A stretch of DNA of 64,000 bases, taken from the NCBI RefSeq assembly GCF_009363755.1, contig NZ_CP045417.1:2852001-2916000 (forward strand), read 5' to 3'. The DNA comes from Halomonas sp. THAF5a (GTDB taxonomy: Bacteria > Pseudomonadota > Gammaproteobacteria > Pseudomonadales > Halomonadaceae). The notes beneath the pieces are model-generated. The model was given only the letters and a program-made list of their open reading frames with translations, did no database searches and was not told where the DNA came from. Below, piece by piece: positions 14,701 through 33,074 of this stretch (the first letter of the stretch is position 1; every line of letters begins with the position of its first letter). Made by a program: the position numbers and the translations under genes.

Positions 14701-15681
14701 CTAGACGGGCGAGCCAGCCTCGCCGCCATGCACCAACTGATACTGGCCGAGGCCATGGCTGACGTTCTTGCCAAGATGGGTGAACTGGCCCAGCCATAGC
14801 CAAGGCCACCAGGCCTTCAGGGCATCCCCCGTCAGGTGGATATCCCCCACCAGACCGTCCAGCCGGATGGCACGACCCTGCCGACTCGACTGGCGCTCCC
14901 AGCGATACAGGCGCATTTCGGTAGACAGCGCCAAGCCATCGCTGGTCGGCGGCGCCGGTCGCATTGCGGCGCCCGCCACCAGTTTCAGGCGCCGCACCAG
15001 AGCGGCGAGCAAGATAGGTGGTGTCACCTGTTCGGGGTGGCAGAGCCGACCACGATGCTGCAACCGCACCGGACTCATGAAGCGCAGCGTCAACGTGCTC
15101 AGGTCGTCTGGCACCCCTGCAGGCTGTAGCAGTCGGGCAAGGTGCGGTGACCATTCACTGTGAGCTTCCTGCCAGACCTCGTTCCAACGCTGCCCCTGAT
15201 AGTGCTGGACCGATACCAGCCGCGCCCGCCCCCGGCGCGTGCCCAGCCCCTTGTAGAGCGCGCGCTGCCAGGCCCGCACAAGCAGTTCGACATCGGCCGG
15301 GGAAAGGCCGAAGACGGCCATCTCGAACTGGAACTGCGCCCCGGGGCGCAACGTATGGGGGCGTGTCACCGGCGAGCGCAGGATATAGGGCGGCGGCGGT
15401 GTGGGATGGCCTGGACTGGCGGTGCCCAGCGCCTTGGGCTCGAATAAGGCAGGGTAGCGGCAGGAGCGCAGCAGCGGGCAGCCCTCGCAGCTCGCCATCC
15501 CGGTCATGCAGGAAAGCTCTCGCAGCGCATGGCCCAGGGCACCTCGCAGCGTGGCACCAGCAAAACCCGGCAAGTGAATCGGCTGCTCGGCCACCGTCTG
15601 CAGACGATAGAGCCCCATCGGCAGCCCGGCGCTCACGGCCGTATCGAGCTGCTGGCCGGCTGTCGCTTCCATCACCCTCAT
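14701..15681 (-). CDS. cas6: CRISPR pre-crRNA endoribonuclease Cas6
   Basis: Cas6 cuts the array transcript inside each repeat to leave an 8-nt 5' tag. The 326-residue product opens with a RAMP fold (GLYRLQTV, residues 23-30). It then has FAGATLRGALGHAL and a four-cysteine cluster at C58, C65, C68 and C74 in the form CEGCPLLRSC, typical of this Cas6 subfamily. The C terminus has the Gly-rich GQFTHLGKNVSHGLGQYQL loop. Which histidine is catalytic cannot be settled here. It is the last gene of the cmr operon, 4 bases after cmr6. It presumably recognises the 36-bp repeat of the adjacent array and would leave the tag AUUAAGAC. Confidence 0.88.
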   Translation of the reverse strand: MRVMEATAGQQLDTAVSAGLPMGLYRLQTVAEQPIHLPGFAGATLRGALGHALRELSCMTGMASCEGCPLLRSCRYPALFEPKALGTASPGHPTPPPPYILRSPVTRPHTLRPGAQFQFEMAVFGLSPADVELLVRAWQRALYKGLGTRRGRARLVSVQHYQGQRWNEVWQEAHSEWSPHLARLLQPAGVPDDLSTLTLRFMSPVRLQHRGRLCHPEQVTPPILLAALVRRLKLVAGAAMRPAPPTSDGLALSTEMRLYRWERQSSRQGRAIRLDGLVGDIHLTGDALKAWWPWLWLGQFTHLGKNVSHGLGQYQLVHGGEAGSPV

Positions 15682-15685
15682 CCGC

Positions 15686-16843
15686 CTAGTCTCCCCATAG
15701 CTCGCGCCTGAGCTGCTTGAACTCCTTGAGCTTGTTCTTGCTGCCGTGCGTCTTCAGGAAGGACTGGACCAGCGCCAGCAAGGCATCGCGATCCGCTTCC
15801 GGCCAGTGCACGGCGGCCTCCCTGACATCGGCCAGCAGCGCGTTGCGAAAGTCGCCACCGCTGCTGGGATTCTGGTTGACCGATTCCTGCACGGCCCGCT
15901 CCAGCCAGGCCAGCCGCTGCTGGCTCGGCGACAGGGCCGCCAGCGCCTGCCGCTCGCGCGCCTCCTCCCAGGCCTGCTCGATATCTCGTGTCCAGTCGTC
16001 AAGCTTCTTGACCACATCGTCATCACAGGCCGCGAAGCTGCCGTAGCCGGCCGCCGTCTTGGCACCGGCGCCGGCATGCCACAGGGCGCGCTCCAGCATT
16101 TCCTCCACCAGCGCCAGCAGCGCCGGCGTGTCGTCGCGCCGCACCCGCGGCGCGAAGGGAAACGCCAGGCTCGTCTGCTTGACGGCCAGGAACGGCACCG
16201 GGACCGGATCATGCCAGTCGGCGGGCAGGGTCTCGCGGATGCCAGGCTGCTCGGCCCCCTGCTCGTACCACTGGCCCATATGCGGCGTCATGGTATCGAT
16301 CACCAGCGAGACCGGCTCCACCGGCAAGGCGTCGAAGAACAGCACCTCGCCGGCAACGAACTCATCGCTTGCGGCCGGATCCTTGCTGCGGCTGCCGAAG
16401 ATCCGCTTGAGCGCCGCCTCAGGCTCGGCCAGGTGCTGCTCGATCCAGGCGCGTACCAGGCCCTTGACGCTGCTGCCGGGCAGGTAGGGCACCCCGAGGG
16501 TGGGATGAAACAGCAAGCCGTTCTCCACCGGGTGCGGAAGGCCAAGCCCGGTGGCAAAATGCCAGCGGGAGCTGAACGCGCACTGGCGCCCGCCGCGGTG
16601 CGCCATCAGTGCAGCCTGGCGCATCCAGTGTGCCTTGAGTGCATCGGGGTCACCCACTCTCAGCGCCCCGGGACCCGGGGCACACAGCGTCTTGAGGAAA
16701 TCGCTCTTGGCCTCGTTGCCCAGCGAAAAGTCGCGCGCATACTGGGCGAAGAAGCGCTCGAACCATAGCCCCGGGTGGCCCTGCCCCCTTGCGGGAAAGC
16801 TCGCCGGCGCCCGGTGCTCGGCATAGAGTGGCAGCCCGGTCAT
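15686..16843 (-). CDS. cmr6: Type III-B subunit Cmr6
   Basis: Cmr6 is a Cas7-like RAMP subunit at the head end of the Cmr effector. Starting at MTGLPLYAEH it has 385 residues. Features are the RAMP motif YLPGSSVKGLVRAW (residues ~133-146), the LVIDTMTPHMGQWY segment and a Gly-rich AGAKTAAGYG loop (~268-277). A long charged C-terminal extension (about 285-385) goes beyond the core Cmr6 fold and is helical in character. The start overlaps the cmr5 stop (ATGA), so the genes are translationally coupled. The larger frame upstream of this start is a shadow of cmr5. Confidence 0.9.
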   Translation of the reverse strand: MTGLPLYAEHRAPASFPARGQGHPGLWFERFFAQYARDFSLGNEAKSDFLKTLCAPGPGALRVGDPDALKAHWMRQAALMAHRGGRQCAFSSRWHFATGLGLPHPVENGLLFHPTLGVPYLPGSSVKGLVRAWIEQHLAEPEAALKRIFGSRSKDPAASDEFVAGEVLFFDALPVEPVSLVIDTMTPHMGQWYEQGAEQPGIRETLPADWHDPVPVPFLAVKQTSLAFPFAPRVRRDDTPALLALVEEMLERALWHAGAGAKTAAGYGSFAACDDDVVKKLDDWTRDIEQAWEEARERQALAALSPSQQRLAWLERAVQESVNQNPSSGGDFRNALLADVREAAVHWPEADRDALLALVQSFLKTHGSKNKLKEFKQLRRELWGD

Positions 16844-17412
16844 CGCGCCTCCTCCACGTCGTCCTTGACGATCAGCGCCTCGGCAAACTTCTTGGCCCAG
16901 GCCAGCATAGCCTGGGTCTCCGCCGTGGCGCGCCGGTAGTGATGCTGGTCCTGGCTCATCAACGCCTGCAGCAATACTGGCTCGGCGGGATGCAGCCCCG
17001 GAGTGACCGCCTGGCCGGCATACACGGCCCCGTCGCCGCACAGCCAGTCTTCCAGCAGCTTGTAGATCACCCCGTAGGCCGCATAGTTGGTGCGCTTGGC
17101 GAAATAAAACGCCATCGCCTGGCCAAAGCCGTTCATCTGGATCATGGCCGGCAGGCGGCGCAGGTAGCTCTTGAGCTGCGTGTGCTGGTACTGGCTGTTT
17201 TCCGACTCGGCCAGCGCCTCCTGCAGCCGCTGCAGCGCAAACTCGGCGCGGCGCTGCTCGACCAGGCGCAGCGACCGACCGCTGCTTGACGACATCCCAA
17301 CCGCCTTTGGCCGACAAGTCTCACGGGGTGGTGAGCGATCGCCTGACCTGGACACTCTGGCCTGCAGCACCCCCGAGGACGCGTTACCGGACTTCTGCTT
17401 TTTCTTGCTCAT
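16840..17412 (-). CDS. cmr5: Type III-B small subunit Cmr5
   Basis: Cmr5 is the helical small subunit (Cas11) forming the belly filament of the Cmr complex. The family core begins around RSLRLVEQRRAEFAL and includes YLRRLPAMIQMNGFGQAMAF. I choose the start MSKKKQKSGN at 17412 because it overlaps the cmr4 stop as ATGA, giving 190 residues. The alternative start MSSSSGRSLR (17295) gives 151 residues, closer to the usual size. If the longer form is made, it has a ~38-residue Lys/Arg/Ser-rich N-terminal tail. That tail is unusual and could touch RNA. Confidence 0.88.
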   Translation of the reverse strand: MSKKKQKSGNASSGVLQARVSRSGDRSPPRETCRPKAVGMSSSSGRSLRLVEQRRAEFALQRLQEALAESENSQYQHTQLKSYLRRLPAMIQMNGFGQAMAFYFAKRTNYAAYGVIYKLLEDWLCGDGAVYAGQAVTPGLHPAEPVLLQALMSQDQHHYRRATAETQAMLAWAKKFAEALIVKDDVEEAR

Positions 17413-18332
17413 GCCTCGCCCCCCTTTGCCTCGCTGCCCAGCCGGGCCACCCGGCACCAGCCCATGCCGGTGGTCTCGTTGCCGCCGACCTGCAGATAGG
17501 GTCCGTCGTCGAACAGCGCCTGCAGGGTCTGCTCAAGCAGCTCGGCGCTGCTCAGCTCGCGGTGGGTCTCGCTGCGCGGCGGCTGGGCCGCCAGCACGCA
17601 GTAGAGCAGGGTATCCGGCGGCAGGCTCTCTTCGTGCCAAAGCGCGCCACCCTCTACGGTCTTGGTGTCGCTGCTGATGCGCACGTGGGGCAGCACCGGG
17701 ATAGCGCTACGACAGAAGTGGCTGAAGCTGTCGTCGTCCACCAGGGTCAGCTGAGTGGTCAGCGCCTTTCGCGTGTCGTCTTCCGCCAGGCCGGCGACTG
17801 GCGCCACCAGGGCCAGTATCCGCTCCACCCAGGCCTCGACTTCCGGCCAGGCCGCCGGCGTGAAGGCGAACTCTTCCAGGAACAGAGTCTCCGACTGCTG
17901 CGACCCGGCCACCAGGGCGGTGCCCGCCGCCACATCGGGAATCGTCGATGCCTCACCCGCCAGACCGGCCCGGGCGCGATCGGCCAGCAGGCGACGCAGC
18001 AGCGCCGGGCAGGTGACCAGGCGGAAATGGCCGGTCAACGAGCGCACCGGCAGCAGCAGCAGACGGGCATCGCTGACCAGCAATGCACCGGCATGCTCGG
18101 AGGCATTCAACGTATCCGGCCCGAAGGCCGTCGTCTTGAGGTCTTTTTCCATGCCCAGCTGATCGGCGCGAGCACGCAGCGCGCCCTTCATCGCCGAACC
18201 GAAGACGCAGGGCCACTGGCTGTGGATCTCGCGCTGGATGGGCAGGTCGATCAGCTCTTCCTTGCCGCCCCCGCCGGCATGCAGCGGTGTCTCGGCGAAG
18301 AGTCCCAGCATCTGATGTGTCATGGCCGTCAT
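17409..18332 (-). CDS. cmr4: Type III-B backbone subunit Cmr4 (target-RNA slicer)
   Basis: Cmr4 is the Cas7 backbone subunit that cuts target RNA at 6-nt intervals. The 307-residue product has the conserved N terminus LFAETPLHAGGGGKEELIDL. Asp29 in this stretch matches the catalytic aspartate of the family. It is followed by PIQRE, and GSAMKGALRARA forms the RAMP motif. The Gly-rich GGNETTGMGWC lies near the C terminus. A strong Shine-Dalgarno AAGGAAGG lies 7 bases before the ATG at 18332. A 50-base gap separates it from cmr3, the only real break in the core operon. Confidence 0.92.
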   Translation of the reverse strand: MTAMTHQMLGLFAETPLHAGGGGKEELIDLPIQREIHSQWPCVFGSAMKGALRARADQLGMEKDLKTTAFGPDTLNASEHAGALLVSDARLLLLPVRSLTGHFRLVTCPALLRRLLADRARAGLAGEASTIPDVAAGTALVAGSQQSETLFLEEFAFTPAAWPEVEAWVERILALVAPVAGLAEDDTRKALTTQLTLVDDDSFSHFCRSAIPVLPHVRISSDTKTVEGGALWHEESLPPDTLLYCVLAAQPPRSETHRELSSAELLEQTLQALFDDGPYLQVGGNETTGMGWCRVARLGSEAKGGEA

Positions 18333-18382: not shown

Positions 18383-19552
18383 TCAGCGCCAGCGGCCCAG
18401 GCAGAACCGCCCGAAGCCCCAGGCCTGCTCCTCGCCCAGAACGACCGACTGCAGCGCCGCGGCCAGGGCGGCGGGCTCGGCCTCGACCGGTTCGCAGCAG
18501 TAGACGCTGCCGGGTGCGACAAGGCTGCGCACGGCACGCGGCCGGCGCTGCTGCTGGTCCCAGCCGCCCAGGCGCTGGGCGCGGCCCATGGCTGCACTGA
18601 CCAGGCGCAGCTCGACGCCATTGATCCTGCCCTGCCAGTGGGTGGTGATGCCCTGGTCATCGCAGACCGGGGTAAACCCCGGCAGGCACCACTCGGCCTG
18701 GTCGTCGTGGCGAAAGGCGCCCGGCGTTTCCAGCATCAGCGCCACCCCGCGATCCCCCGCCTGCAGTGTGGGCCCATCGCCCATCGACGGTGCCTTCACG
18801 GCCTGGATCTCGACCTGCGCCTCGCGCCCTTCGCCGCCCAGCCGCACGCTGGTGTCGTCAGGCAGACGAGCGGCCAGGTCTTCCGGCACGCCATCGAGCT
18901 CCAGCCCGATCCGCAATGAACTATCCGGGCGAAAGCGAAGATGGCGCGTCTGGTAGAGCTGCCCGTCCTGCACAGTGGCCCGTTGCGTGTCTCGCCCGAT
19001 GCCCAGGCGCGGCTCGCTGTCGAGGTGCTCATGGCGCCAGACCAGGTCCTTGGCCTCGGGGCACTCGCCCGCCTGCCAGCGAGCCAGACCATTGGCGGTC
19101 AGCCAGGCGCCCTCCACCGGCTTGCTGCCGGCCGGCGCACCATCCAGCGCCGGCAGCGCCACCCGACCGAGGTCGCAGCGCACTGGCTCGCCGACGCGCA
19201 GTCGTGACAGTACCTTCTTGCCCTGGGCGTCCTCGCCGATCAGCAGATCGGCCGGCACCGGATAGAGGCGTTCATCGCCCTGGTAGAGGTGTGGGCCGGT
19301 CACCCGCAGCTCGCCAAGCTGCTGACCGTTGCCTAGCCAGGCGAAGTCGGCCTGCGCGGCGCGATCGGTGGCGAAACGGCGCCAATCGACGCCGGCGAGA
19401 TCCCCCAGATGCGTGCGAATGGCCCCCATCAAGGTGGTGACGGGGGGGGGAAACTGCGACTCCAGCTGGCCGACACCCACCGCATCGTGGGCACGCGCCT
19501 CGCGGAAGAACCAGCTGTCCACGGTCTGGAACAACCAACGCTGGCGACTCAT
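18383..19552 (-). CDS. cmr3: Type III-B subunit Cmr3
   Basis: Cmr3 is the Cas5-like subunit that holds the crRNA 5' tag next to Cas10. Starting at MSRQRWLFQT it has 389 residues. The N terminus DSWFFREARAHDAVG matches the family's DxxFFRDxRPxD-type motif. It is followed by PPPVTTLMGAIRTHL and a C-terminal Gly-rich LGEEQAWGFGRFCLG. The start overlaps the cas10 stop by four bases. The upstream extension of the open frame lies within cas10 and is rejected. Confidence 0.9.
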   Translation of the reverse strand: MSRQRWLFQTVDSWFFREARAHDAVGVGQLESQFPPPVTTLMGAIRTHLGDLAGVDWRRFATDRAAQADFAWLGNGQQLGELRVTGPHLYQGDERLYPVPADLLIGEDAQGKKVLSRLRVGEPVRCDLGRVALPALDGAPAGSKPVEGAWLTANGLARWQAGECPEAKDLVWRHEHLDSEPRLGIGRDTQRATVQDGQLYQTRHLRFRPDSSLRIGLELDGVPEDLAARLPDDTSVRLGGEGREAQVEIQAVKAPSMGDGPTLQAGDRGVALMLETPGAFRHDDQAEWCLPGFTPVCDDQGITTHWQGRINGVELRLVSAAMGRAQRLGGWDQQQRRPRAVRSLVAPGSVYCCEPVEAEPAALAAALQSVVLGEEQAWGFGRFCLGRWR

Positions 19553-21576
19553 GCCGTCACCTCCTTGTCTGCCGGTGTCTCGGCGCCGGTCGCCTCGCCA
19601 CGCTCGAGCCGCGACTCGGTGGCCAGAAAGCGCACCAGGCGCAGCGTATCGGGGCTGTAGCAACCGGTCGGCGCGATATGCGCCGACTGCTCAGCATCCA
19701 GCGTACGGCGCTGTTCGGCGAGCAGCGTCAGCAGCGGCTCGATCAGCTCGGCCACTTCCCGACGGCTCTGCTCGCCGCGCTTGAGCGCGATGCCCGAATG
19801 GCGCAGTTCGGCCTCCAGCAGGGTGCGCATCAGCTCCTTCGCCGAATCGGTCGGGCGTTCCGCCAGGTTCGCGGGCAGCCGGTCGAGCAGCGCCATGGCC
19901 TTGTAGAAGAAGCGGTGGGTGAAGGCCGATTCCTGCTCACGGCGCAGGAAACGTGTCACCAGCACGGTAAGCCGGTTCTCGCCGTCCGCCAGCAGGTACT
20001 CCCAGGGCTGGCTCCACTCCAGATGTCGGCCGCCCGGCTTCCACACCCGCACCGCCAGGGCATCGCGCCCGGTACGCTCCTTGGCCACGTCATCCAGAAG
20101 AGAGTGGGCATCGCCCAGCACGAAGGTCAGCGGCAGGCGCATATGCGCGAACTGGATGCCCGCCGACAGGCTGGTGGTGATGCGCTGCGCGTCGTTCAGC
20201 GACCGGTTCTGCTCGGCAAAGCAGGCGCTGTAGTGGGCGCGAATCTCGCTGGCCATGTCGATCGCGTGATCCACCGAGGCCAGCGCCAGCACGTCGTCGC
20301 CGCCGGCATACACCAGAAAGCCATCGTGGCGCGCCACGATCGCCGGCACCCCGCGCGTAAAGGCGTTCAGCCCCGTGGAGATGGCGGTCTGCTTGTCGGA
20401 GTCGCTCATCTGGCTGCCGAGGCGGTCGCCATCCATGATCACCACCGCATAGAAGCTCGATGCCTCGGCCATGCCTGCCGTGTGTCGCAGGCGCTGCAGC
20501 GCCTTGAGGGTCTGGGCGGCGGCATCCGGCGCATCGAAGCGCCGTCCACCCTGCTCCAGCTGGGAGGCGTGGAATACCACGCCGTCCAGCCCGGAATACT
20601 CGGGACGCTGCCCCAACCGCCTGGCGGCCGCATACACCCCGGCCAGCGGGGTCCGGCACTCGGGAAAGCCCACTAGCTGCTCGGCGCCGTCGAAGAACGC
20701 CCCCAACGCCTCGCTGACGGCGGCATCGCCGGCGGCCTTTTCCAGCACCCGCCGGTACCAGGGCGCCGCGGCCAGATAGGGCACGGACGGCACGTTGGGG
20801 TTGAGCGCCCAGCCCTTCAGCGTCACGTCGTTATCCAGCGTGGTGGTCCAGCCCTCAAAGTGGCGCACGAAGCGACGCTTGACGAAGCCCAGCGCCGACA
20901 GGCACTCCCCCTCGCGTAGATCGGTCCAGCCTTGCCTAGGCTTCAAGGCATCGCGCAACGACGTCCAGAAGGCCTCGAGCCGCTTCCGGTCGGGGCGCTC
21001 CAGCCCGGAGAGCTCCTGCCAGCCACTCATCATCATGCACTTCACGCCCGGCTCGTCCGGCGCCATGTCACAACGCCAGTTCTTGCGCCGATCCAGCAGG
21101 TCGCTGCGCTGTGGCTCGTCGGTCAAACACCAGCTGATCTCCCAGAACCGGCTGAGCTGGCGAAACCAGATCGCCCGGGTGGTCGCTAGCTGCTCATCGA
21201 GCAGGTGCGGTGCCAGATCCTGGTCCCAGACGGTCTTGCACAGCGCCAGCCAGGCCTGCTGCATGGCCCGGACCACCGCCTCGGGGTCGAAGTCCTCGCC
21301 GACCCGCGCGCCCAGTGCCTTGAAACGGTTCGGTACGCTGCCCTGGTGCGGAGCCTCCCCCTCCCCGGCCTGGCCCTGCATCGCCTTCAGGAAGGCATCG
21401 TCGGGGATCGGAAACTCGATCTCGCCGCCCTGCGCGCGAACGCTGAGCATCGCCACGCTGGACAACCAGGAGAGCAGGAAGGAGCCGGCCCAGAAGTCGC
21501 GGGTGCGCCGCGCCTGGGCGACGAAACCCTGCACCGGCCCCAGGGTGAGATGAAAATACTGATCGCGCTGGCTCAT
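19549..21576 (-). CDS. cas10: Type III-B Cas10 (Cmr2), no HD domain, cyclase motif intact
   Basis: Cas10 is the large subunit that makes cyclic oligoadenylates from ATP when target RNA binds. The 675-residue product starts directly with LTLGPVQGFVAQARRTRDFW, the usual start of the first palm-like domain. There is therefore no N-terminal HD ssDNA nuclease domain, and the protein is shorter than full-length Cas10. The second palm has MDGDRLG (381-387) and a complete GGDD (425-428), so cyclase activity is expected. C169 and C180 may be what is left of the zinc site. It overlaps cmr1 and cmr3 by ATGA on both sides. Confidence 0.93.
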   Translation of the reverse strand: MSQRDQYFHLTLGPVQGFVAQARRTRDFWAGSFLLSWLSSVAMLSVRAQGGEIEFPIPDDAFLKAMQGQAGEGEAPHQGSVPNRFKALGARVGEDFDPEAVVRAMQQAWLALCKTVWDQDLAPHLLDEQLATTRAIWFRQLSRFWEISWCLTDEPQRSDLLDRRKNWRCDMAPDEPGVKCMMMSGWQELSGLERPDRKRLEAFWTSLRDALKPRQGWTDLREGECLSALGFVKRRFVRHFEGWTTTLDNDVTLKGWALNPNVPSVPYLAAAPWYRRVLEKAAGDAAVSEALGAFFDGAEQLVGFPECRTPLAGVYAAARRLGQRPEYSGLDGVVFHASQLEQGGRRFDAPDAAAQTLKALQRLRHTAGMAEASSFYAVVIMDGDRLGSQMSDSDKQTAISTGLNAFTRGVPAIVARHDGFLVYAGGDDVLALASVDHAIDMASEIRAHYSACFAEQNRSLNDAQRITTSLSAGIQFAHMRLPLTFVLGDAHSLLDDVAKERTGRDALAVRVWKPGGRHLEWSQPWEYLLADGENRLTVLVTRFLRREQESAFTHRFFYKAMALLDRLPANLAERPTDSAKELMRTLLEAELRHSGIALKRGEQSRREVAELIEPLLTLLAEQRRTLDAEQSAHIAPTGCYSPDTLRLVRFLATESRLERGEATGAETPADKEVTA

Positions 21577-22604
21577 AGCAGCCGCTCCGTGGCCTGTGAG
21601 AAGTACAGCTTCAGCGGCTGGCCGAAGCCCTCGGGCTCGGTAACATCCGGGTGAAAGTCCGCCGGCAGCTCGGTCACCACCGGCAGGAAGGCGTCACCGA
21701 CCGGATGCACGTGCATAAGGAAGGGGCTGGCGCGGCGCCTGCGTGAATCGACCCCCACCAGAGGCAGGCCGAACACCACCTTGGTCTTTCCGCGCAGGCT
21801 CTTGCGCACTTCCTTATAGGGAGCTTCAAGCTTGCCGATGGCGGCCCGGCCACTGGGGGCCGTGGCGAAGGCATGACAGCGTGCCTGCTGCGACCAGGCG
21901 GTAAAGGGCGGGCGGCTATCGGGCCAGGAGCCATCGCCTAGCGCTGCCGACAGCCGGTCGCGATAGTCCGCCAGGCTCGTCACCGCCATCGGCTCACCGT
22001 CCAGCTCGGTGAGCGCCACACTGCCGAAGCCTCGCCGAGCCCGACTACCCAGGCCTCCCAGCAGTCCCCAAAGCGTCAACGCCTGGCGCAGCTGATGAAT
22101 GTCCCCGTCCTTCGTATCGGCCTTGAAGGCCAGCGAGAGGCGAAAGGATTGGTCTTCGGCCAGGGCGGTACGATGCGGCGCCTCCCTGGAGCCCCAGAGC
22201 CCATAGCCCAGGTAGCCGCCCTGACTATTGCCATCCCTGGGCCAGTCGCTGACCGTGGCCATGTCCGACGGCTGGCTGACGCCTAGTCGAAACAGCCCCT
22301 GACCGCCCTCCTCCTGCTGGTCGTTCGAGCGCCTCGCAGCGAGACCAAACAGACGCGCCTCCTCACGGTGCAAGCGCTGAAGCGCGGCGTCAGTGTTGCC
22401 CCGCTCAGCCTCCCGCATCCGCCCCCAGTTGAGTGCGCGCCACCAGAAGCGCAGCGCGCCCTTGATCGAGGGCGGGCGCACGCTCTCCGCCCGCTGGGTA
22501 CCATCACCGAGAAACATCGGCGTCACGATGCTGAATGTTGCCTCCAGGCGGCGCGGCGTGTGCGACGTCAGTTCGGCGCGCCACCGCTCAATCGTTTCAT
22601 CCAT
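21573..22604 (-). CDS. cmr1: Type III-B subunit Cmr1
   Basis: Cmr1 is a double-RAMP subunit at the 3' end of the crRNA. I start it at MDETIERWRAEL (343 residues), preceded by the ribosome binding site AGGAG at 6 bases. The conserved opening FSIVTPMFLGDG (25-36) and PPSIKGALRFWWRAL (44-58) are present. GLWGSREAPH and the Gly-rich GGLGSRARRGFGS of the second RAMP follow. It overlaps the cas10 start by four bases. An upstream in-frame ATG at 22664 would add 20 residues with no family similarity. Confidence 0.91.
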   Translation of the reverse strand: MDETIERWRAELTSHTPRRLEATFSIVTPMFLGDGTQRAESVRPPSIKGALRFWWRALNWGRMREAERGNTDAALQRLHREEARLFGLAARRSNDQQEEGGQGLFRLGVSQPSDMATVSDWPRDGNSQGGYLGYGLWGSREAPHRTALAEDQSFRLSLAFKADTKDGDIHQLRQALTLWGLLGGLGSRARRGFGSVALTELDGEPMAVTSLADYRDRLSAALGDGSWPDSRPPFTAWSQQARCHAFATAPSGRAAIGKLEAPYKEVRKSLRGKTKVVFGLPLVGVDSRRRRASPFLMHVHPVGDAFLPVVTELPADFHPDVTEPEGFGQPLKLYFSQATERLL

Positions 22605-22673
22605 GCCCTGCTCCTGAGCCAGGCCGTGCCGACCCCTGCCGACGTCGGTGGCCATAGGTTCCATATTCTGTCG

Positions 22674-23885
22674 TTATTCCGAGATAGCGACTTGCTCATC
22701 TCGCAGCAGCAGGCCATAGCCACCGCCGCGGGTTGTTCTGGTCAGATGCCGCCCCTGGGCATCGAACACCTGCTGGATCTTGAGGCAGCGTGCCAGCGCG
22801 TCGGGCAGTGCCTCGGCCAGGCGCCGGTTGATACGCGTGGTGGCCTGGGCCACATCGAGCCCCAGGCGCATGCTGGCCTCGAAATCCACCGGGCGGATAC
22901 CAGCATCTTCCAGCACGCCTTCGTAATGATCGAGCCACTGCGCCAACTGTTCGCGGTAGCCAAGCGCGGGCTCCAGCGGCAGCGGCAGGCTGCGCGCCAG
23001 CTGCATCATCAGGCAGCGGCCAAGGTGCTCGCTGCCGCCTTCGCTGCTGCGGCGCAGGCTGGCATCTCCGGCGCGCGTTGCCTCGGCCACTGCCTGATAC
23101 CAGCTCCAGTCGAAGCGGCTGGCAAACGTCACCCGGCCCAGGCAGCGCTGGGTATCGCGGAGCTCCAGGCACATCTCGGCCGCATGCCAGACCGCACGAA
23201 TGGTCTCGGGGCGCTGCCCCAGGTTGATCAGATCGACCAGCCGGCGAAAGCTCAGGTCACCCCCCGAGGCACGCAGTGCGCCGGGGAGATGCCCCCGCTG
23301 ACGAATGAAGGGAATGTCCGCCAGGTTGATCCGAGCGTCGCGCATATCGAGTACGGTGCCATCGCGCAGCGTGATGAGGTGGCTCTCGCGGGTGGGAAAG
23401 TAGAAATCGGGATGATTCTCGAAGCCCTCGCTGACCAGCACGTGGGACATGCGATCCTGGGGGCGGCCAAACAGGCTCATGGCATAGCCCAGGTAGAAGG
23501 TCATGGTCTTGCGGCCACCGGCTATGGAGGCATGCAGGGCGCAGTCGTCGTTGGCGGTCAGGTGCCGCACCCGCTCCATGATGTAGTCGGCCAGCGCCTC
23601 ATGATCATCCAGGGTGCGGGCATCATCTACCGGCACCCCGTCGGCGCCCGGCACCTGGTGGATCGTTACCTGCTCTGGCGTCAGCGACGGCTTGCCAAGC
23701 GCCTCGCACAGCCTGGCCAGATGCTCCTGGTCGAACAGGCCCGCCTTCACCCGCTCAGCGCCCTGGCGGGTGGTAATGATCTCCACGCGATCCGGCCAGG
23801 GCTCGCCCTTCTCCACCAGGCCGTAGAGCGTCTCGGTCACCACCTGGGGCGTCATGCCCGTTACCGCCAGCAGTATGGACTCCAT
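22674..23885 (-). CDS. CARF-domain CRISPR protein, NE0113 family
   Basis: The 403-residue product begins MESILLAVTGMTPQVVTETL and has ASIAGGRKTMTFYLGYAM (residues 119-136) and HPDFYFPT. These are hallmarks of the CRISPR-associated NE0113 family (TIGR02584), which contains a CARF-type cyclic-oligoadenylate sensor. GGRKTM corresponds to the ligand-binding loop of CARF domains. The C-terminal half (about 205-403) is helical and shows no convincing HEPN, PD-(D/E)XK or DNA-binding motif, so it could be a sensor, regulator or ring nuclease. The start is set by the family N terminus; an upstream ATG at 23918 is rejected. It is the second gene of the cmr operon. Confidence 0.85.
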   Translation of the reverse strand: MESILLAVTGMTPQVVTETLYGLVEKGEPWPDRVEIITTRQGAERVKAGLFDQEHLARLCEALGKPSLTPEQVTIHQVPGADGVPVDDARTLDDHEALADYIMERVRHLTANDDCALHASIAGGRKTMTFYLGYAMSLFGRPQDRMSHVLVSEGFENHPDFYFPTRESHLITLRDGTVLDMRDARINLADIPFIRQRGHLPGALRASGGDLSFRRLVDLINLGQRPETIRAVWHAAEMCLELRDTQRCLGRVTFASRFDWSWYQAVAEATRAGDASLRRSSEGGSEHLGRCLMMQLARSLPLPLEPALGYREQLAQWLDHYEGVLEDAGIRPVDFEASMRLGLDVAQATTRINRRLAEALPDALARCLKIQQVFDAQGRHLTRTTRGGGYGLLLRDEQVAISE

Positions 23886-23949
23886 GGCTCTCCTCCCTGA
23901 TGGCCAGTTGCGATTCAAACTCTACTTCATGAGCAGGTAATTCAACACG

Positions 23950-24414: not shown

Positions 24415-27333
24415 CACTTACTCCTTGGGAAGCCAGGGAAATAGTCGGACCTCTCTGGTCTACGTCAACATCACCCGCAACAAGTCTTAATCTCTTGGAA
24501 GTCAGGGAAGCGATCGGACGCATCATCGGCGAGGCGCCGAGCATGGAGAACGAGTCTTAACCCCTTGGAAGTCAGGGAAGCGATCGGACTGCAACCGCCC
24601 TTCAATCAAGCGTCCAGCGTGGCGTCTAAATCCCTTGGAAGTCAGGGAAGCGATCGGACAGAGCCGCAGGCCGCGCCCGACGATCTGCTGGGTCTTAATC
24701 CCTTGGAAGTCAGGGAAGCGATCGGACGTTTGTCCACTTCCCGGACACTACTGTGACCGTGTCTTAATCCCTTGGAAGTCAGGGAAGCGATCGGACCTAC
24801 CAGCAGGCGTTGGATGACAACTACTGGCCGTCTTAATCCCTTGGAAGTCAGGGAAGCGATCGGACCCCGCTGGATGGCTGAGCAGGGCCTCACCACCGGT
24901 CTTAATCCCTTGGAAGTCAGGGAAGCGATCGGACTCGCAAAAATGGGCGATTCGGTCACGGCGTCAGGTCTTAATCCCTTGGAAGTCAGGGAAGCGATCG
25001 GACTGTGCTCGTGTGCATTTTATGCACAAACAGGACTGTCTTAATCCCTTGGAAGTCAGGGAAGCGATCGGACCAAGGAGCCCTATCGACCCTTCAAGGC
25101 GCTGGGGTCTTAATCCCTTGGAAGTCAGGGAAGCGATCGGACAAAGCGTCTTCGTCACTTCCTGACAGCTTGCGCGTCTTAATCCCTTGGAAGTCAGGGA
25201 AGCGATCGGACCGACGACACCCTCAAGGTAGGCGTCAGAGACCGTCTTAATCCCTTGGAAGTCAGGGAAGCGATCGGACTGCCGCCACTGTACAGGCCGT
25301 GGCGTATGGTAAGTCTTAATCCCTTGGAAGTCAGGGAAGCGATCGGACCGTCAACCTGTGCCGGACGAACCGCATCGCCCGTCTTAATCCCTTGGAAGTC
25401 AGGGAAGCGATCGGACCTCTCGAATAGGCAAGCCGCCTCGCTCAGTCCGTCTTAATCCCTTGGAAGTCAGGGAAGCGATCGGACGGAGCTTCTGGTTCAG
25501 CAAGGACCGGAGGCGGAGTCTTAATCCCTTGGAAGTCAGGGAAGCGATCGGACCGAGGTCCAGGAGCACATGGACCCGATGCCGAGTCTTAATCCCTTGG
25601 AAGTCAGGGAAGCGATCGGACCGCCTGGAACGCGACGGCCTGCACTTGCGCTGGTCTTAATCCCTTGGAAGTCAGGGAAGCGATCGGACTCAAAAACTTT
25701 GCGAACACTCTCGGAGTCGTTGTCTTAATCCCTTGGAAGTCAGGGAAGCGATCGGACCTCGCACAATGTCAAGCGTTCGCGCATGACTTTGTCTTAATCC
25801 CTTGGAAGTCAGGGAAGCGATCGGACAAAGCGCCCAGCAAAGCCAAGCGGGGCCCCAAGTCTTAATCCCTTGGAAGTCAGGGAAGCGATCGGACGCATCA
25901 CCGGGGCGATGGTGCACTACGACCGTGTCTTAATCCCTTGGAAGTCAGGGAAGCGATCGGACTGACCCTCGATTCGAGATCACCGGCGTGGGGCGTCTTA
26001 ATCCCTTGGAAGTCAGGGAAGCGATCGGACCCCGCCGGCCGCTGGGATCGCCTCACCGACATCGTCTTAATCCCTTGGAAGTCAGGGAAGCGATCGGACC
26101 CGCTGACACGGTTGCGCAGCTTGGCCACGGTGGTCTTAATCCCTTGGAAGTCAGGGAAGCTATCGGACCCACCGGGAGGTTGGCGTCGGGCGGATCGGGG
26201 GGTCTTAATCCCTTGGAAGTCAGGGAAGCGATCGGACGGAGCATGGTTCACTCCACGGAGATGATGTTGGTCTTAATCCCTTGGAAGTCAGGGAAGCGAT
26301 CGGACACATCGCCATGTATGGTGAGGAGGCCAGCCAGGTCTTAATCCCTTGGAAGTCAGGGAAGCGATCGGACAGCCCAAGCACTCAAGCTGCTCGACCA
26401 GCAGCGTCTTAATCCCTTGGAAGTCAGGGAAGCGATCGGACACTGGGCGCGTGCAACGCCACCTTCAAAACCAGTCTTAATCCCTTGGAAGTCAGGGAAG
26501 CGATCGGACCTGTACCGCTCCACCATCACCCTGGCCTACCTGTCTTAATCCCTTGGAAGTCAGGGAAGCGATCGGACGTAGACCGTCTTGTAGGCCGCGG
26601 CCTGGACCGCGTCTTAATCCCTTGGAAGTCAGGGAAGCGATCGGACCCCGCCGGCCGCTGGGATCGCCTCACCGACATCGTCTTAATCCCTTGGAAGTCA
26701 GGGAAGCGATCGGACCGCATCGCCTGAGACCAGGGGCAACGGGCCTGCGTCTTAATCCCTTGGAAGTCAGGGAAGCGATCGGACGGAAGTCGCCCGCTGC
26801 CGGCATGGGCAGCACGGTCTTAATCCCTTGGAAGTCAGGGAAGCGATCGGACCACCCCCGGCGGGGTATGAGTGACACTCACTTGGTCTTAATCCCTTGG
26901 AAGTCAGGGAAGCGATCGGACCTACTAGGTTTTCATACACATCACCAAAGTTCGTCTTAATCCCTTGGAAGTCAGGGAAGCGATCGGACGTGAGAGAGAA
27001 GAGACTGAGGAAAGTGCCAACCGTCTTAATCCCTTGGAAGTCAGGGAAGCGATCGGACAGCTCTCGTAGACCAGTCGGATCGCCTCATCCGTCTTAATCC
27101 CTTGGAAGTCAGGGAAGCGATCGGACGCAGCTTCGATACGGGCCTGGCTGAGCGTGGCGTCTTAATCCCTTGGAAGTCAGGGAAGCGATCGGACGTCCAA
27201 GCTGGTGCGGGTCGATTGTTAAAGAGCGGTCTTAATCCCTTGGAAGTCAGGGAAGCGATCGGACCTTGGACGCACCCTTGCGGGTGATCACCTTGTCGTC
27301 TTAATCCCTTGGAAGTCAGGGAAGCGATCGGAC
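24415..27333 (-). CRISPR. CRISPR array, 43 repeats, type III-B
   Basis: There are 43 repeats of 36 bp and 42 spacers of 32-34 bp. On the plus strand the repeat starts GTCTTAATCCCTTGGAAG and ends GGGAAGCGATCGGAC. On the minus strand it ends in ATTAAGAC, close to the ATTGAAAC-type 5' tags of type III crRNAs, so transcription is on the minus strand. The leader is therefore at the high-coordinate end, next to cas2. The far end shows decay. The first repeat (24415-24450) is badly degenerate, and those at 24484, 24554 and 24624 each carry one change; one internal repeat (26133) also has one change. Spacer 26031-26063 is repeated exactly at 26647-26679. Confidence 0.98.
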
Positions 27334-27456
27334 CGCAGATTGAAAAACAATCCTTATCTATCAATAAGTTATTTCCTGCACGGCAACGATCGAAAAGCGA
27401 CCAACAGGTTGGCTAATTTTTGACCAACCACCGCACTGCCGAGGTTCTGACTGCGC
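27334..27456 (-). promoter_or_regulatory. CRISPR leader
   Basis: This is an AT-rich stretch between the leader-proximal repeat and the cas2 stop. It includes a CCAACAGGTTGG palindrome (27401-27412) and runs such as CTAATTTTTGACC. Its position at the non-degenerate end beside cas1-cas2 marks it as the integration-side leader. I cannot assign the promoter hexamers with confidence. Confidence 0.75.
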
Positions 27457-27468
27457 TATTAAAGAGCA
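27457..27468 (-). promoter_or_regulatory. boxA antitermination element upstream of the array
   Basis: The minus strand reads TGCTCTTTAATA, 11 of 12 bases identical to the E. coli rrn boxA TGCTCTTTAACA. It spans the cas2 stop codon and lies about 120 bases before the first repeat in the direction of array transcription. boxA elements ahead of CRISPR arrays are known to recruit Nus factors and block premature Rho termination. Confidence 0.65.
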
Positions 27469-27797
27469 TCTCCCTTGGAAGCATCATGCCGGACTGGCTG
27501 TTGGAGTTCAAACCGCGGGGCGGCCTCATCAATGACGCCGCTGGGCAACGGCAGATTCCCCCACCAGAGTATGCCCTGCCCCATCCTGACAGGATAACCA
27601 CGCACATCATCCACCTCTGCTTTGATCAGGGCGCGCAGGCGCCGCTGTAGTTCCCGCAGCTGTCGATGATCGCCCTGCCAGGCGAATACCGACTCCTGCA
27701 GCGCGTAGCCGCAGGTCCGAAGTAGACGCTGCACCTTGCGCAGCCGCCGTGGTTCTCGAATGTCGTAGGCGATGACATACCACTGTACCTCGCTCAT
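27459..27797 (-). CDS. cas2: Cas2, first copy (leader-side)
   Basis: Cas2 dimers bridge Cas1 dimers in the spacer integrase. The 112-residue product has the ferredoxin-like N terminus WYVIAYDI with Asp12 at the usual metal position. RLLRTCGYALQESVFAW, the canonical second segment, follows. The C-terminal ~25 residues extend past the normal Cas2 core. It is the last gene of the Toprim-cas2-cas1-cas2 operon, 15 bases after cas1. Its final codons overlap a boxA element. It is clearly diverged from the second cas2 at 28771. Confidence 0.92.
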   Translation of the reverse strand: MSEVQWYVIAYDIREPRRLRKVQRLLRTCGYALQESVFAWQGDHRQLRELQRRLRALIKAEVDDVRGYPVRMGQGILWWGNLPLPSGVIDEAAPRFELQQPVRHDASKGDAL

Positions 27798-27812
27798 CGC
27801 TTCTGCCCCCCA

Positions 27813-28751
27813 TTACTGCTGCATACCGGCAGTCGTGGCGTCCACGGCCCCGGCCAGCACTCGGGCATATCCGGTCAGCCGCTTGCGCCACAGTCGCTGC
27901 GGTGTCTCCAACGCTTCGTAGTAAGCGAGCCGCCCCTGCTTGCCCAGCAGACAGCCACCGCTCTTGGGCATCGAGAAATGCCGACGGTCCAGATACCCGT
28001 CAAGAAACAGCCCCATGACCCAGGCCTCGATCACTGGCCGCAGCGGCTCGATCAGATCGCAGGCCAGCGCTTGACGCCCGCTAACCAGGCGGTGGTACAG
28101 GCCCAGCTGAGGGTCAAGCCCCGCTACCTTGAGCTGACGCACGGCTTCGTCGTGAGCCAGCACATAGGAAAGCGATAGCACAGCATTCACCGGGTCCGGC
28201 GGGGGGCGCCTCTGTCGCTGCACAAAGCCCAGCGAACCGGGCAGGCGCTTGCGCCACCAGGCAAAGACGGCCTTCTGGGCCGCGCCTTCCATGCCTCTGA
28301 GCTCTGCCTCAGCCGTTACCCCCGCCAGGCGCTCGAGGCCCCGGCCCAGCGATTCCCGCAGCTGCTGGCTGTCCGCCTCATCGGTCTCCTTCAAGACCTG
28401 GCACCCTACCTTGAGCTTGTGGCGAACCCAGCGGGTCGACCATGCCAGGCGCGCTCGTTCGTCGCTCTGCCACTGGTACTGCAGACTGCGCCGTGAGGCA
28501 TCCCGCTGCTGGTCGGCGAACAGCGAGAAGCCGTGTTCCACATGGCGCTGGTTGACCACGATGAAGTCGATGCCACGCTTCATCAGCTGGCCGATCAGTT
28601 GCGTCGTCACCTGCACGCTGTGCAGACAGACCAGCTGCTTGATCCGCGAGAGCGGCAGCGTGCGCGGCGGCTGATCGGGACTGCGGATCAGCAGACAATC
28701 GGTCACATACTCCAGCGCCAGCTGGCGACGATCGAGTATCACTCGGCTCAT
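27813..28751 (-). CDS. cas1: CRISPR integrase Cas1
   Basis: Cas1 is the metal-dependent integrase that inserts spacers at the leader end. The 312-residue product has the N-terminal beta domain (about 1-80) and a helical domain with the expected catalytic residues. These are Glu155 in RGMEGAAQ, His220 in GLDPQLGLYHR and Asp232 in CDLIEPLRP, together with DPVNAVLSLSYVL (186-198). There is no fused reverse transcriptase or Cas6 domain. It is flanked on both sides by cas2 genes on the same strand, 19 bases from the upstream one. Full length and intact. Confidence 0.96.
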   Translation of the reverse strand: MSRVILDRRQLALEYVTDCLLIRSPDQPPRTLPLSRIKQLVCLHSVQVTTQLIGQLMKRGIDFIVVNQRHVEHGFSLFADQQRDASRRSLQYQWQSDERARLAWSTRWVRHKLKVGCQVLKETDEADSQQLRESLGRGLERLAGVTAEAELRGMEGAAQKAVFAWWRKRLPGSLGFVQRQRRPPPDPVNAVLSLSYVLAHDEAVRQLKVAGLDPQLGLYHRLVSGRQALACDLIEPLRPVIEAWVMGLFLDGYLDRRHFSMPKSGGCLLGKQGRLAYYEALETPQRLWRKRLTGYARVLAGAVDATTAGMQQ

Positions 28752-28770
28752 GGCGTCTCCTAGAACCCTT

Positions 28771-29043
28771 TCAACAGATGACGATCAGGTCGCCGGCAGG
28801 GCTCTGCGGCCCCCGCCCCAGCTGCCAGGCATGAGCGAAGGGCAACACGCGCGCGGCAAGCAGGCTGTCGCGTCCCTCCAGTGGTCGTGCCAGCTCGGCC
28901 AGAGCCGCCGTAAGCAATTCGCGCTGCGCCTGTAGCTCGAAGACTGATTTCTGATAGCCCTCGGCAAGGCCGCGCAGCTGTCGGCGGCAGCGCCGTCGAT
29001 GACGCTCATCGGCGATGTCATAGGCCACCACCCAGGGCTCCAT
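28771..29043 (-). CDS. cas2: Cas2, second copy
   Basis: This is a second, shorter Cas2-like protein of 90 residues. It starts MEPWVVAYDI (Asp9 at the metal position) and has GLAEGYQKSVFEL, matching the second Cas2 segment. Sequence identity with the other Cas2 is low beyond these motifs, so this is not a recent duplication. It begins 6 bases after the stop of the Toprim gene and ends 19 bases before cas1, so it belongs to the same operon. It may form a heterodimer with the first Cas2 or serve a separate role. Confidence 0.85.
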   Translation of the reverse strand: MEPWVVAYDIADERHRRRCRRQLRGLAEGYQKSVFELQAQRELLTAALAELARPLEGRDSLLAARVLPFAHAWQLGRGPQSPAGDLIVIC

Positions 29044-29049
29044 GCGCCA

Positions 29050-30162
29050 TCACGACGGCCACAGCATCCAGGCCCGACCGACCTGCTCGCACAGGGCATC
29101 GCGGCCCTCCAGCCACAGCAGGTCGTTATAGTCGGTCGGCCTCGATGCCAGGCTGCAAGGGTGGAATTCGGGACCGTGCAGCATATCCCCGCCTTGCATG
29201 GCGGCCAGTGCCTTGTCGCGGCCCACATTGCCGACATGGGGCTTCCAGAGGTCCTGGTCGCAGAAGAACACCGCCGGCCCCACGATTCCTCGGCGCACAC
29301 GAGCCAGATTGCCTGCCGTCAGCGCCATACGGATCTCGGCGGGCCACGCCAGCGCCAGACTCAGGCCGGTCGCCAGGCCTTCGCAGATTGCCACTGGTCG
29401 TTTGATCAGGCTGCCTGACTCACGAGAACGAAGACGCACGAAACTGCCTGCACTGGCGCCTTCTTCCGGCAGGCAGAAGCGCTTGACGCTCGGCTGGCCA
29501 GGAGTGGCATGCAGCAACTGATAGCCCGCCGGGTTACCCAATGCATTCTCCAGGGGCGCCATCAAGGTGTAGCCGTCGGCCCGTGGCCAGTACCGCAGGT
29601 CAAGATGCCCCAGCAGCGTCGCGTCGGCATGCCAGCCGAGACGCTCCTTCACCCATGGGTGCCAGCCTTGCAACGGCTCGGCCAGCTGCCAGCGTTGGTG
29701 CCAGCGCTGAAAGCGCTTGAGCCGCCAAGCCTGTTCCTGGCGATGGCGAAGCGCAGCGCGCGCCGGCGCCTCCGAGCTGCAGCGCGACAGAGAAGGCTCG
29801 AGGCCGCCGGCTAAGCGTGCGCCGATGTCGCGCCACCAACGCAAGCCGTTGAAGTCCCGCTGGAGGCCGCCGTGCTTGAAGGTGGTGAAACGCAGGAATG
29901 GCCACTCGTAGCCGCCGGGCAGGCGGTTAACATGGAACAGCACGCTGCAGGTGTGACGATACTTACGATCCAGCACCGGCACTTGGGCGCCCTTCATCAG
30001 GGTGCCAGGAGCGGGAAGCGCTCGGCGCAAGGCATCGAGGTCGATTCCCACCTCGTTGGCCGCCGTGGAGGCCTCGGACCAGGCCATCGACAGCAGTTCC
30101 ATCGGCGCCGGCATGGCACGGTAGTGACGCCGGCTGGCGAGCTGGTGAGAAGACGAGGACAT
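29050..30162 (-). CDS. Toprim-domain, primase-like protein linked to the adaptation genes
   Basis: The 370-residue product has a Toprim fold in its C-terminal third. Glu261 lies in PVAICEGLATGLSLALAW, Asp302 and Asp304 lie in FFCDQDLWKPHVGN, and TDYNDLLW (343-350) follows. The central part (about 165-245) resembles the pre-Toprim region of P4-type and plasmid primases (WPRADGYTLMAPLEN, VKRFCLPEEG, VRLRS). No zinc finger or helicase domain is present. A GGAG site lies 6 bases before the ATG. It is the first gene of a tight operon with cas2, cas1 and cas2. Involvement in processing or copying DNA for spacer acquisition is an inference; stray mobile-element cargo is the alternative. Confidence 0.78.
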   Translation of the reverse strand: MSSSSHQLASRRHYRAMPAPMELLSMAWSEASTAANEVGIDLDALRRALPAPGTLMKGAQVPVLDRKYRHTCSVLFHVNRLPGGYEWPFLRFTTFKHGGLQRDFNGLRWWRDIGARLAGGLEPSLSRCSSEAPARAALRHRQEQAWRLKRFQRWHQRWQLAEPLQGWHPWVKERLGWHADATLLGHLDLRYWPRADGYTLMAPLENALGNPAGYQLLHATPGQPSVKRFCLPEEGASAGSFVRLRSRESGSLIKRPVAICEGLATGLSLALAWPAEIRMALTAGNLARVRRGIVGPAVFFCDQDLWKPHVGNVGRDKALAAMQGGDMLHGPEFHPCSLASRPTDYNDLLWLEGRDALCEQVGRAWMLWPS

Positions 30163-30338: not shown

Positions 30339-30629
30339 ATGACGCGACATTTCGTCAGCCGACACCCCGGCGCCGCCCGCTGGCTGGCCCGCCAGAAGAT
30401 TTCTGTGGATCGCTTTCACGGCCACCTGAAGCTCGAGCAGATCGCTCCGGGAGATGTGGTCTATGGCACCCTGCCGATCCATCTGGCCGCAGCGGTGTGC
30501 GCCCGCGGGGCAGAGTACTGGCATCTCAGCCTGACAATGCCCGCCAGCCTGCGCGGCCAGGAGTTGAGCGTCGACCAGCTTGAGCAGCTGGATGCCAGGC
30601 TGTGCCGCTTCGTGGTATACGAGCCATAA
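30339..30629 (+). CDS. csx16: Csx16 (VVA1548 family), ring-nuclease family
   Basis: Csx16 is a small type III accessory protein; members of the family degrade cyclic oligoadenylates and so switch off signalling. Starting at MTRHFVSRHPGA the product has 96 residues. It shows all family blocks: FVSRHPGA (5-12), GDVVYGTLPIHLAAAVCARG (38-57) and PASLRGQEL. A perfect AGGAGG lies 7 bases before the ATG, which decides against the longer frame starting at 30204. It is followed 27 bases later by the Card1-like nuclease, so messenger eraser and messenger-activated nuclease are made together. Confidence 0.9.
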   Translation: MTRHFVSRHPGAARWLARQKISVDRFHGHLKLEQIAPGDVVYGTLPIHLAAAVCARGAEYWHLSLTMPASLRGQELSVDQLEQLDARLCRFVVYEP

Positions 30630-30656
30630 CAACTCACGCTCATGGAGGAGATACGC

Positions 30657-31910
30657 ATGCCGCAACTGCATGTCACCCTGGTCACCGGCCGCCTGGAAGC
30701 CAACCTGATTCCCCTGCTGCAGCTTGAGCCCGAGCAGATCGTGCTGGTGGCCAGCCAGCGCATGGTCAAGGCGGGCGAACGCCTGGCGGCACTGCTGGAT
30801 ACCCAGCTTCCCCACACCCATGTCGAACTGAAGACCGGCCTGCCGGATACCGACCCCGCAGAGATCAGTCACTTTGCGTTCGAGTTGGCCGATCAGCTCG
30901 AGGCCCGGCGCGAGGCCGGCGAGGAGATGCGGATCACCTTCGACATGACCGGAGGCACCAAGCTGATGGGGCTGTTGTTCCAGGAGGCGATGCGCGTGTG
31001 TGACGCCACGATGCTCTATACCGACTCCGACGCCGGCGTTATCTATCAGCTCGGCTCGGAGCTGAGTCCCGCCAGTTTTCAGAACACTCCCATCGCGCCG
31101 GTGCTCGGCTGCGAGCTCTACCTGCGGGCCAATGGCAAGCGCCTGCGTCAGGCGCTCTCCGACGATCCAAGCTGGCGCGAGAGGGGAGAACAGCGCAAGG
31201 CGGTCACCAAGTATCTTGGCAAGCATGCCGATGCGCTCGAAGGACTGTTCGGCACGCTGAACTATCTGATCCTGGCGGACGAAAAGGGCAAGACGCCGGT
31301 GATCAACCAAGGCAATCGCCAGACCCCCGATAAACTCAATGAAGGGGCATGGGAGCAGTCGCTGAGCCAGCATCCGGCCAAGCCCTGGCGCGAAGCGCTG
31401 ACTCGGCTCAACGAGGCCTGCCTGATGGAGTGGTCCGCCAGTGATCCGCGACACCTGGGCTTTCCCAGCCTGGAGGGCGCCCAGTACCTGAGCGGCGGCT
31501 GGATCGAGGAATACGCCTGGCACTGTGCCCGCGATGCCGGCCTGGAGGATATCTACTGCGGTGCCCAGGTCACCGACGAGTCGGCCCCCAAGGACGATAT
31601 TCGCAACGAGTTCGACCTGGTCACGGTGCACCGCAATCGCATGCTGATCATCGAGTGCAAGACCAGTCGGCTGGCACCGGGTTCCGACCAGGAGGTGCTG
31701 CACAAGCTGCACAGCCTGGCCGATCAGTCCTCAGGGCTGTTCGGCACCAAGGTGCTGCTCTCGGCCCGGTCCTTTGGCGGTGGGGATCAGCACGACAGGA
31801 ACGTCAAGCGCGCCAGGAGCATGGGCATTAACGTGCTGGATGGCGCCGGGGTCAAGCAGTTCCCCGAGAAGATTCGCCACTGGATCGAAGCGGGCCGCTG
31901 GCCGGCCTGA
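30657..31910 (+). CDS. card1: Card1/Can2-like CARF-PD-(D/E)XK nuclease
   Basis: This is a cyclic-oligoadenylate-activated nuclease that cuts nucleic acids non-specifically during infection. The 417-residue product has an N-terminal CARF domain (about 1-150) with the ligand loop DMTGGTKLMG (96-105). A linker follows, then a C-terminal restriction-like domain (about 270-400) with Glu284, Glu318-Phe-Asp320 and the IIECKTS motif (Glu333, Lys335). Start MPQLHVTLV is chosen because GGAGGAG lies 7 bases upstream. It pairs with csx16. Its stop faces epmA 9 bases away, the right edge of the island. Type III Cas10 made here would supply the activator. Confidence 0.9.
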   Translation: MPQLHVTLVTGRLEANLIPLLQLEPEQIVLVASQRMVKAGERLAALLDTQLPHTHVELKTGLPDTDPAEISHFAFELADQLEARREAGEEMRITFDMTGGTKLMGLLFQEAMRVCDATMLYTDSDAGVIYQLGSELSPASFQNTPIAPVLGCELYLRANGKRLRQALSDDPSWRERGEQRKAVTKYLGKHADALEGLFGTLNYLILADEKGKTPVINQGNRQTPDKLNEGAWEQSLSQHPAKPWREALTRLNEACLMEWSASDPRHLGFPSLEGAQYLSGGWIEEYAWHCARDAGLEDIYCGAQVTDESAPKDDIRNEFDLVTVHRNRMLIIECKTSRLAPGSDQEVLHKLHSLADQSSGLFGTKVLLSARSFGGGDQHDRNVKRARSMGINVLDGAGVKQFPEKIRHWIEAGRWPA

Positions 31911-32956: not shown

Positions 32957-32981
32957 CATAGTGCAGAGCTGCGGCTTATCC

Positions 32982-33074
32982 GGCGACAGGCCTGCGCGGA
33001 GGCGCTGTGAACCCATCCCTGGGCGCTACCGATGCCGTCCCTGGCATAGGACCTCCGCTCGGCCTGCCCCCGTC
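32982..33074 (+). repeat. Dispersed intergenic repeat, copy 2
   Basis: The core is the same as in copies at 3161 and 41478: GGAGGCGCTGTGAACCC, CCCTGGGCGCTACCGA, an inner palindrome (GATGCC facing GGCAT), then GGACCTCC. It lies immediately 3' of efp, in the same orientation relative to the gene as the other copies. Confidence 0.85.

Follow-up and report, generated by a model that had tools for sequence, protein, structure and literature searches.

A predicted stand-alone Toprim primase encoded with cas2-cas1-cas2 in a type III-B CRISPR locus of Halomonas sp. THAF5a

The type III-B clustered regularly interspaced short palindromic repeats (CRISPR) locus of Halomonas sp. THAF5a contains a gene, here called toprim, which encodes a stand-alone Toprim primase module of the RepA/P4-alpha type together with cas2, cas1 and another cas2; the pairing with cas1 is kept in distant relatives, and suggests that the primase helps to convert invader DNA into CRISPR memory. 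The stretch analysed, hereafter the window, spans 64,000 nucleotides (contig NZ_CP045417.1, positions 2,852,001 to 2,916,000). On its minus strand, toprim (29050..30162; 370 residues, probably starting at Met17, position 30114) is followed by cas2S (28771..29043; 90 residues; Pfam Cas2, 2.3e-8), cas1 (27813..28751; 312 residues; Pfam Cas1, 5.5e-57) and cas2L (27459..27797; 112 residues; Pfam Cas2, 6.1e-16), with intergenic gaps of 6, 19 and 15 bases, so that the four-gene operon described in an earlier note on this DNA was confirmed in coordinates and spacing. With intact catalytic residues in its product, a place in this operon, and cas1 as its neighbour in three families, toprim is most simply read as serving adaptation.

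The Toprim protein is related to the replication proteins of phages and plasmids. PHROG primase families match it at 6.2e-16 and 1.6e-9, and hhalign aligns its residues 17-365 with VP882 RepA (E 2.2e-26) and residues 18-364 with N15 RepA (E 1.5e-13), spans which show that its N-terminal domain is also common to both. Six residues (E261, D302, D304, D344, N346 and D347) are invariant in 36 of 36 alignment rows, among them the three that the earlier note had reported as intact. Furthermore, its CEGLATG aligns with AEGYATA of P4 alpha, which we take to be the EGYATA motif after which this primase type is named, and the Toprim-domain Glu, the DxD and the EGxAT motif are thus all present. The predicted model of the protein has the primase polymerase-domain fold (DnaG/T7 gp4 type), while the N-terminal domain modelled alone is of low confidence (predicted local distance difference test score, 62.5). 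RepA-type primases (P4 alpha and relatives) make short primers on single-stranded DNA, and N15 RepA, VP882 RepA and P4 alpha are primase-helicases serving origin replication. The homology covers nearly the entire Toprim protein in the two RepA proteins, and the Toprim part in P4 alpha; these are, however, proteins of 777-1324 residues, whereas the window protein ends at residue 370 with no fused helicase part, being the primase module alone in a cas1 operon. From this comparison we infer a stand-alone RepA/P4-alpha-type primase, for which primer synthesis itself is a prediction. At E<=1, Pfam gave no archaeo-eukaryotic prim-pol family for the Toprim protein, and no reverse transcriptase family for the toprim or the cas1 reading frame. 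Direct sequence comparison with solved structures gave no useful match; the Pfam Toprim match (PF13362) is weak (0.033), and was rejected as proof of a primase by itself.

Stand-alone proteins of this kind form a small and well-delimited family. The searches returned 18 proteins with the single sequence as query and 32 with a profile, at least 35 distinct ones including the window's own, a lower bound since both scored about 8000 candidates sharing most words; three of the former (P0011, P0012 and P0014) are missing among the profile matches. Most database members (33 of 35) have 336-384 residues, the others being one of 528 and a fragment of 269, although long fused members could not show in the profile search, whose hits are limited to lengths 0.55-1.75 times that of the query. 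Members with a named host come from Halomonas, Vreelandella, Vibrio alfacsensis, Vibrio breoganii, Aliivibrio fischeri and Paraferrimonas haliotis. In whole-genome searches the score gap between the family and its distant relatives is sharp: among 275 Halomonadaceae genomes two exceed 500 bits (the own genome and Halomonas lysinitropha), with 16 further at <=62 bits, and among 369 genomes of the class the own genome alone scores high, with 14 others at <=76 bits. A peptide-pattern scan of 84,980 species genomes found 21 loci, near full-length in two (H. lysinitropha and Nitrincola), and viral contigs gave 36 matches of <=35% identity, bar one at 36% across a short stretch. In a tree of 54 rows, which took in 16 of 91 loci of distant relatives, the 36 stand-alone rows form a single clade (100/100), to which N15/VP882 RepA and similar proteins of Halomonadaceae stand closest. 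Two Halomonadaceae loci (L067 and L072; genomes G057 and G094) encode long RepA-like proteins near VP882 RepA, and are perhaps N15-like prophages.

Gene context is readable for four family members. The order toprim-cas2S-cas1-cas2L of the window recurs in Nitrincola tapanii (L003), as csx16-toprim-cas2S-cas1-cas2L plus an array; on plasmid pMC64A of Aeromonas media it is cas2S-cas1-cas2L-toprim-cmr1-cas10 onward, within a type III-B locus; and in H. lysinitropha (G072; L002, the same locus as L180 and counted once) csx16 and an intact toprim accompany a truncated cas2S stump and an array with varied repeats. Thus, toprim stands beside cas1 in three families of Gammaproteobacteria and adjoins every intact cas1 of its lineage that was seen (3/3), and the contiguity kept in Aeromonas despite the altered gene order argues for a functional link between toprim and cas2-cas1. 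Homologues confined to plasmids or phages and unlinked to cas1, which the earlier note had named as speaking against its proposal, are not what was found, the one plasmid-borne member lying nonetheless inside a type III-B locus. The window, Nitrincola and Aeromonas proteins lie apart from one another within the toprim clade, and the association may therefore be as old as the family itself. Among the distant relatives, none of the 91 loci (partly overlapping, 904 kb in total, many with flanks of about 1.5 kb) matches at E<0.01 any Cas profile used, each derived from one to three type III-B sequences, or the profile of the Cas1 paralogue described below. The remaining parts of a Cas1-Cas2 module are in place at the window: besides two Cas2 proteins, Cas1 (the sole PF01867 match in its genome, one contig of 3.8 Mb) keeps E155, H220 and D232, which we take from other Cas1s to be the catalytic triad, and which are kept in 32 of 32 Cas1 rows. 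A counterpart of cas2S is found in L078 as well as in Nitrincola. The Aeromonas plasmid also carries blaKPC-2 (L204, 3841-4722), about 58 kb from the toprim locus.

Related modules without toprim mostly carry another additional gene. Of the 369 genomes sampled from the class, 77 contain a Cas1 match at <=1e-15, and 20 loci besides the own one score 230-276 bits for Cas1 and were examined with their flanks. None of the 20 has a match to toprim, cas2S is present in all, and cas2L in 19 (L132 ends before it). The presence of two cas2 genes was rejected as a toprim-specific mark, since 19 of the 20 toprim-less relatives have both types. A Cas1-like protein of about 250 residues, here Cas1', is encoded in 19 of the 20, its gene lying between those for Cas1 and Cas2L or, in L132, immediately following cas1; with the two further loci from Halomonadaceae, where it occurs in L177 and not in L178, the total is 20 of 22 (L128-L136, L138-L146, L108 and L177). 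Fourteen of the 19 genes built the Cas1' profile and five were found independently. Pfam Cas1 matches the N-terminal part of six out of six tested, four above the cut-off, and PADLOC PDLC01185 ("Cas1, diverged variant, second in the loci") matches the six as well. At the triad positions of 14 rows there is no E (three rows are gapped) and no H, and D is kept in nine, as read from a weak alignment with Cas1 that is reliable over the N-terminal 61 columns only. Cas1' is thus an apparently inactive second Cas1, carried by most of the dual-cas2 type III-B modules of Gammaproteobacteria examined. It resembles toprim in being an extra gene of the same kind of adaptation module, and differs in being a Cas1 paralogue in which the triad E and H are not found and which is absent from the toprim loci examined.

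The two genes occur together in no locus examined, and Cas1' is missing from all six loci of the toprim lineage (window, L002, L003, L078, L176 and L179). Two of these lack toprim and have a damaged cas1: in L176 (G229) a deletion has merged the first part of cas2S with a cas1 that sets in at about residue 62; in L179 (G241) cas1 (9718-10628) lies in two overlapping frames, for which a frameshift, a sequencing error and a programmed shift would all fit. Both were placed in the toprim lineage because their Cas1 is 54-68% identical to that of the window, and not by the tree; H. lysinitropha, lacking a Cas1, could not be placed in that way. The Cas1 tree unites the three toprim rows (94/90, slightly below the mark for strong support) within a Cas1'-bearing clade (96/97), a nesting most simply explained if Cas1' was lost at the base of the lineage. 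In this lineage toprim belongs to a module in which the nearest relatives carry the apparently inactive Cas1'. A broader idea would be that de novo priming entered type III adaptation modules on at least three occasions, each time through an unrelated fold (prim-pol, reverse transcriptase and Toprim), and that here the Toprim primase replaced inactive Cas1'. If so, both would serve one step, e.g., holding or filling single-stranded prespacers beside a complex with two different Cas2 proteins. We regard this as possible but doubtful, its odds being lowered by a conflict between the trees: window and Nitrincola pair in the Cas1 tree (100/100), and in the toprim tree Nitrincola lies outside window plus Aeromonas (87/61 and 92/99). 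Given this disagreement, we do not take it as proven that toprim replaced Cas1' in one event. Still, the alternation with a Cas1 paralogue lacking catalytic residues offers a handle on the role of Cas1'.

The explanation that we favour, with about an even chance of being right, is that a small primase derived from an N15/VP882-like phage or plasmid replication protein lost its helicase and became fixed in a gammaproteobacterial type III-B acquisition module, where it would prime single-stranded DNA for Cas1-Cas2. Cas1-Cas2 would need duplex or partly duplex prespacers; the Toprim protein, acting together with Cas1 and both Cas2 proteins, would lay short primers on captured foreign single-stranded DNA (intermediates of phage replication or conjugating strands); a host DNA polymerase would extend them into a second strand, and Cas1-Cas2 would trim the resulting duplex and integrate it. 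A role in filling gaps once integration has occurred is less plausible, because 3' ends presumably already exist there. Little is understood about prespacer production in type III systems, and a dedicated Toprim primase in an acquisition operon would be a third independent case of priming joined to Cas1-Cas2, pointing to single-stranded DNA as a source of spacers. Moreover, the system is small, and every part is individually removable.

Adaptation modules that include a primase are already known. According to PMC8211822, CRISPR-associated primase-polymerases (CAPPs) make primers and bind Cas1, along with Cas2; they have relatives in mobile elements and phages. Like them, the Toprim protein is an enzyme of primase type whose gene accompanies cas1-cas2 in a type III system; CAPPs, however, are archaeo-eukaryotic prim-pols, whereas the fold here is Toprim and synthesis is probably restricted to primers. 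CRISPR-associated reverse transcriptases likewise prime DNA synthesis, and their authors propose that foreign nucleic acid is turned into prespacers (PMC10415136). These enzymes (CART, RT-Cas1) resemble the present case as nucleotide-polymerising partners of Cas1-Cas2 with de novo priming, and differ from it in that toprim and cas1 of the window have no Pfam reverse transcriptase match and nothing points to an RNA template. The earlier note's remark that Toprim primases are not standard adaptation partners is to be qualified: their pairing with cas1 extends to three families, but DNA-copying partners of type III modules are known, and "Toprim" is named among the adaptation-module associations in the legend of Fig. 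6B of PMC10910872, to which priority for the bare association may belong. In the available parts of that source, the legend gives no family, subtype or mechanism, and section 14 is silent on Toprim. Searches of open-access papers in PMC showed no description of this Toprim family with cas1 beyond that legend, the accessible portions of PMC9048733, PMC8987985 and PMC12935923 holding nothing on it; a Toprim fold in this role was not found described there.

Several observations weigh against a priming role in adaptation. The context comes from four loci only, the remaining members being bare protein records. The zinc-ribbon ligands of DnaG and T7 gp4 are absent: there is no conserved Cys/His set, and of the Cys and His residues in the window protein C72 and C260 alone are invariant. 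L137 and L178 have neither toprim nor Cas1', and so neither gene is strictly needed, and the conflict between the trees means that toprim and cas1 may have moved separately at some stage. Finally, the intact toprim of H. lysinitropha, in whose genome a three-row Cas1 profile found no match at E<=0.001, may be a recent relic or have a Cas1-independent role. This last point, together with the adjoining csx16 and Card1 genes, would favour a function outside adaptation (in interference, phage or plasmid replication, or type III signalling) in a merely shared operon; we consider this unlikely, since toprim stays with cas2-cas1 despite the reordering in Aeromonas while its csx16 side varies, and since cas1 is damaged in the two toprim-less loci.

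Whether the enzyme copies DNA or processes ends, the two options of the earlier note, is a matter on which homology and fold favour the primase, making it rather unlikely that a Toprim nuclease trims or nicks prespacers in place of Cas4 or host exonucleases. A non-catalytic scaffold or clamp that replaces Cas1' in the Cas1-Cas2 complex, its primase fold being incidental, would suit the occurrence of toprim where the paralogue without triad E and H is absent, but six invariant active-site residues in every row would be odd for a pure scaffold, and we hold it to be quite improbable. That toprim is a passenger or phage remnant without function in the locus might be read from its rarity (2 of 275 Halomonadaceae genomes, and only the own one among 369 of the class) and from phage RepA as the nearest outside group; an intact frame, an invariant active site and a linkage conserved across families leave very little room for it.

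The CRISPR array (24484..27333; no strand assigned) has 42 repeats of 36 nucleotides, 38 equal to the consensus and four with one mismatch, and 41 spacers of 32-34 nucleotides. A worn repeat lies past 24484 and repeats are uniform toward cas2L, where the leader end should be, the region 27334..27458 (no strand) being the probable leader. No convincing protospacer was found (best E 0.006 against phages and 0.8 against plasmids), so that strand bias of spacers is unusable to separate DNA from RNA acquisition. In its own genome, one old spacer (24660-24691) agrees in 31 of 32 bases with C1:615234-615265, in a gene that looks helicase-like by eye. The spacer at 27195-27228, near the leader end, is not among the own-genome matches; its reverse complement resembles what we take to be the boxA element of rRNA operons. 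An identical spacer plus repeat occurs twice (25995-26063 and 26611-26679).

The window holds a type III-B locus with a complete Cmr set, on the minus strand: cas6 (14701..15681; weak, TIGR01877 0.0031, under the cut-off), cmr6 (15686..16798; TIGR01898, 5.9e-32), cmr5 (16840..17397; TIGR01881, 6.3e-15), cmr4 (17409..18332; TIGR02580, 5.9e-60), cmr3 (18383..19555; TIGR01888, 1.8e-26, at 93.1 bits slightly below the cut-off of 100.4), cas10/cmr2 (19549..21576; TIGR02577, 3.7e-35), cmr1 (21573..22664; TIGR01894, 4e-11; RAMP, 2.4e-18) and a CARF protein of the NE0113 family (22674..23918; PF09623, 3.2e-42; TIGR02584, 3.1e-68). The array, cas2L, cas1, cas2S and toprim come next, and then, divergent to toprim on the plus strand, csx16 (30339..30629; TIGR02620, 3.2e-32) and a Card1-like CARF-PDDEXK nuclease (30642..31910; 422 residues; PF09002, 1.8e-23). 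Scans of 27300-30700 found no promoter, and two terminator-like sites against 2.0 in shuffled sequence. Between the array and the CARF gene lies a small open reading frame for an acidic product of 77 residues (23950-24183), alike by eye to one in L002 (about 12744-12978). Elsewhere, an 8-base unit, AAGCGGCC, is repeated in eight head-to-tail copies at 34808-34871, and an 88-base dispersed repeat of 83% identity occurs at 32973-33060 and 41467-41554.
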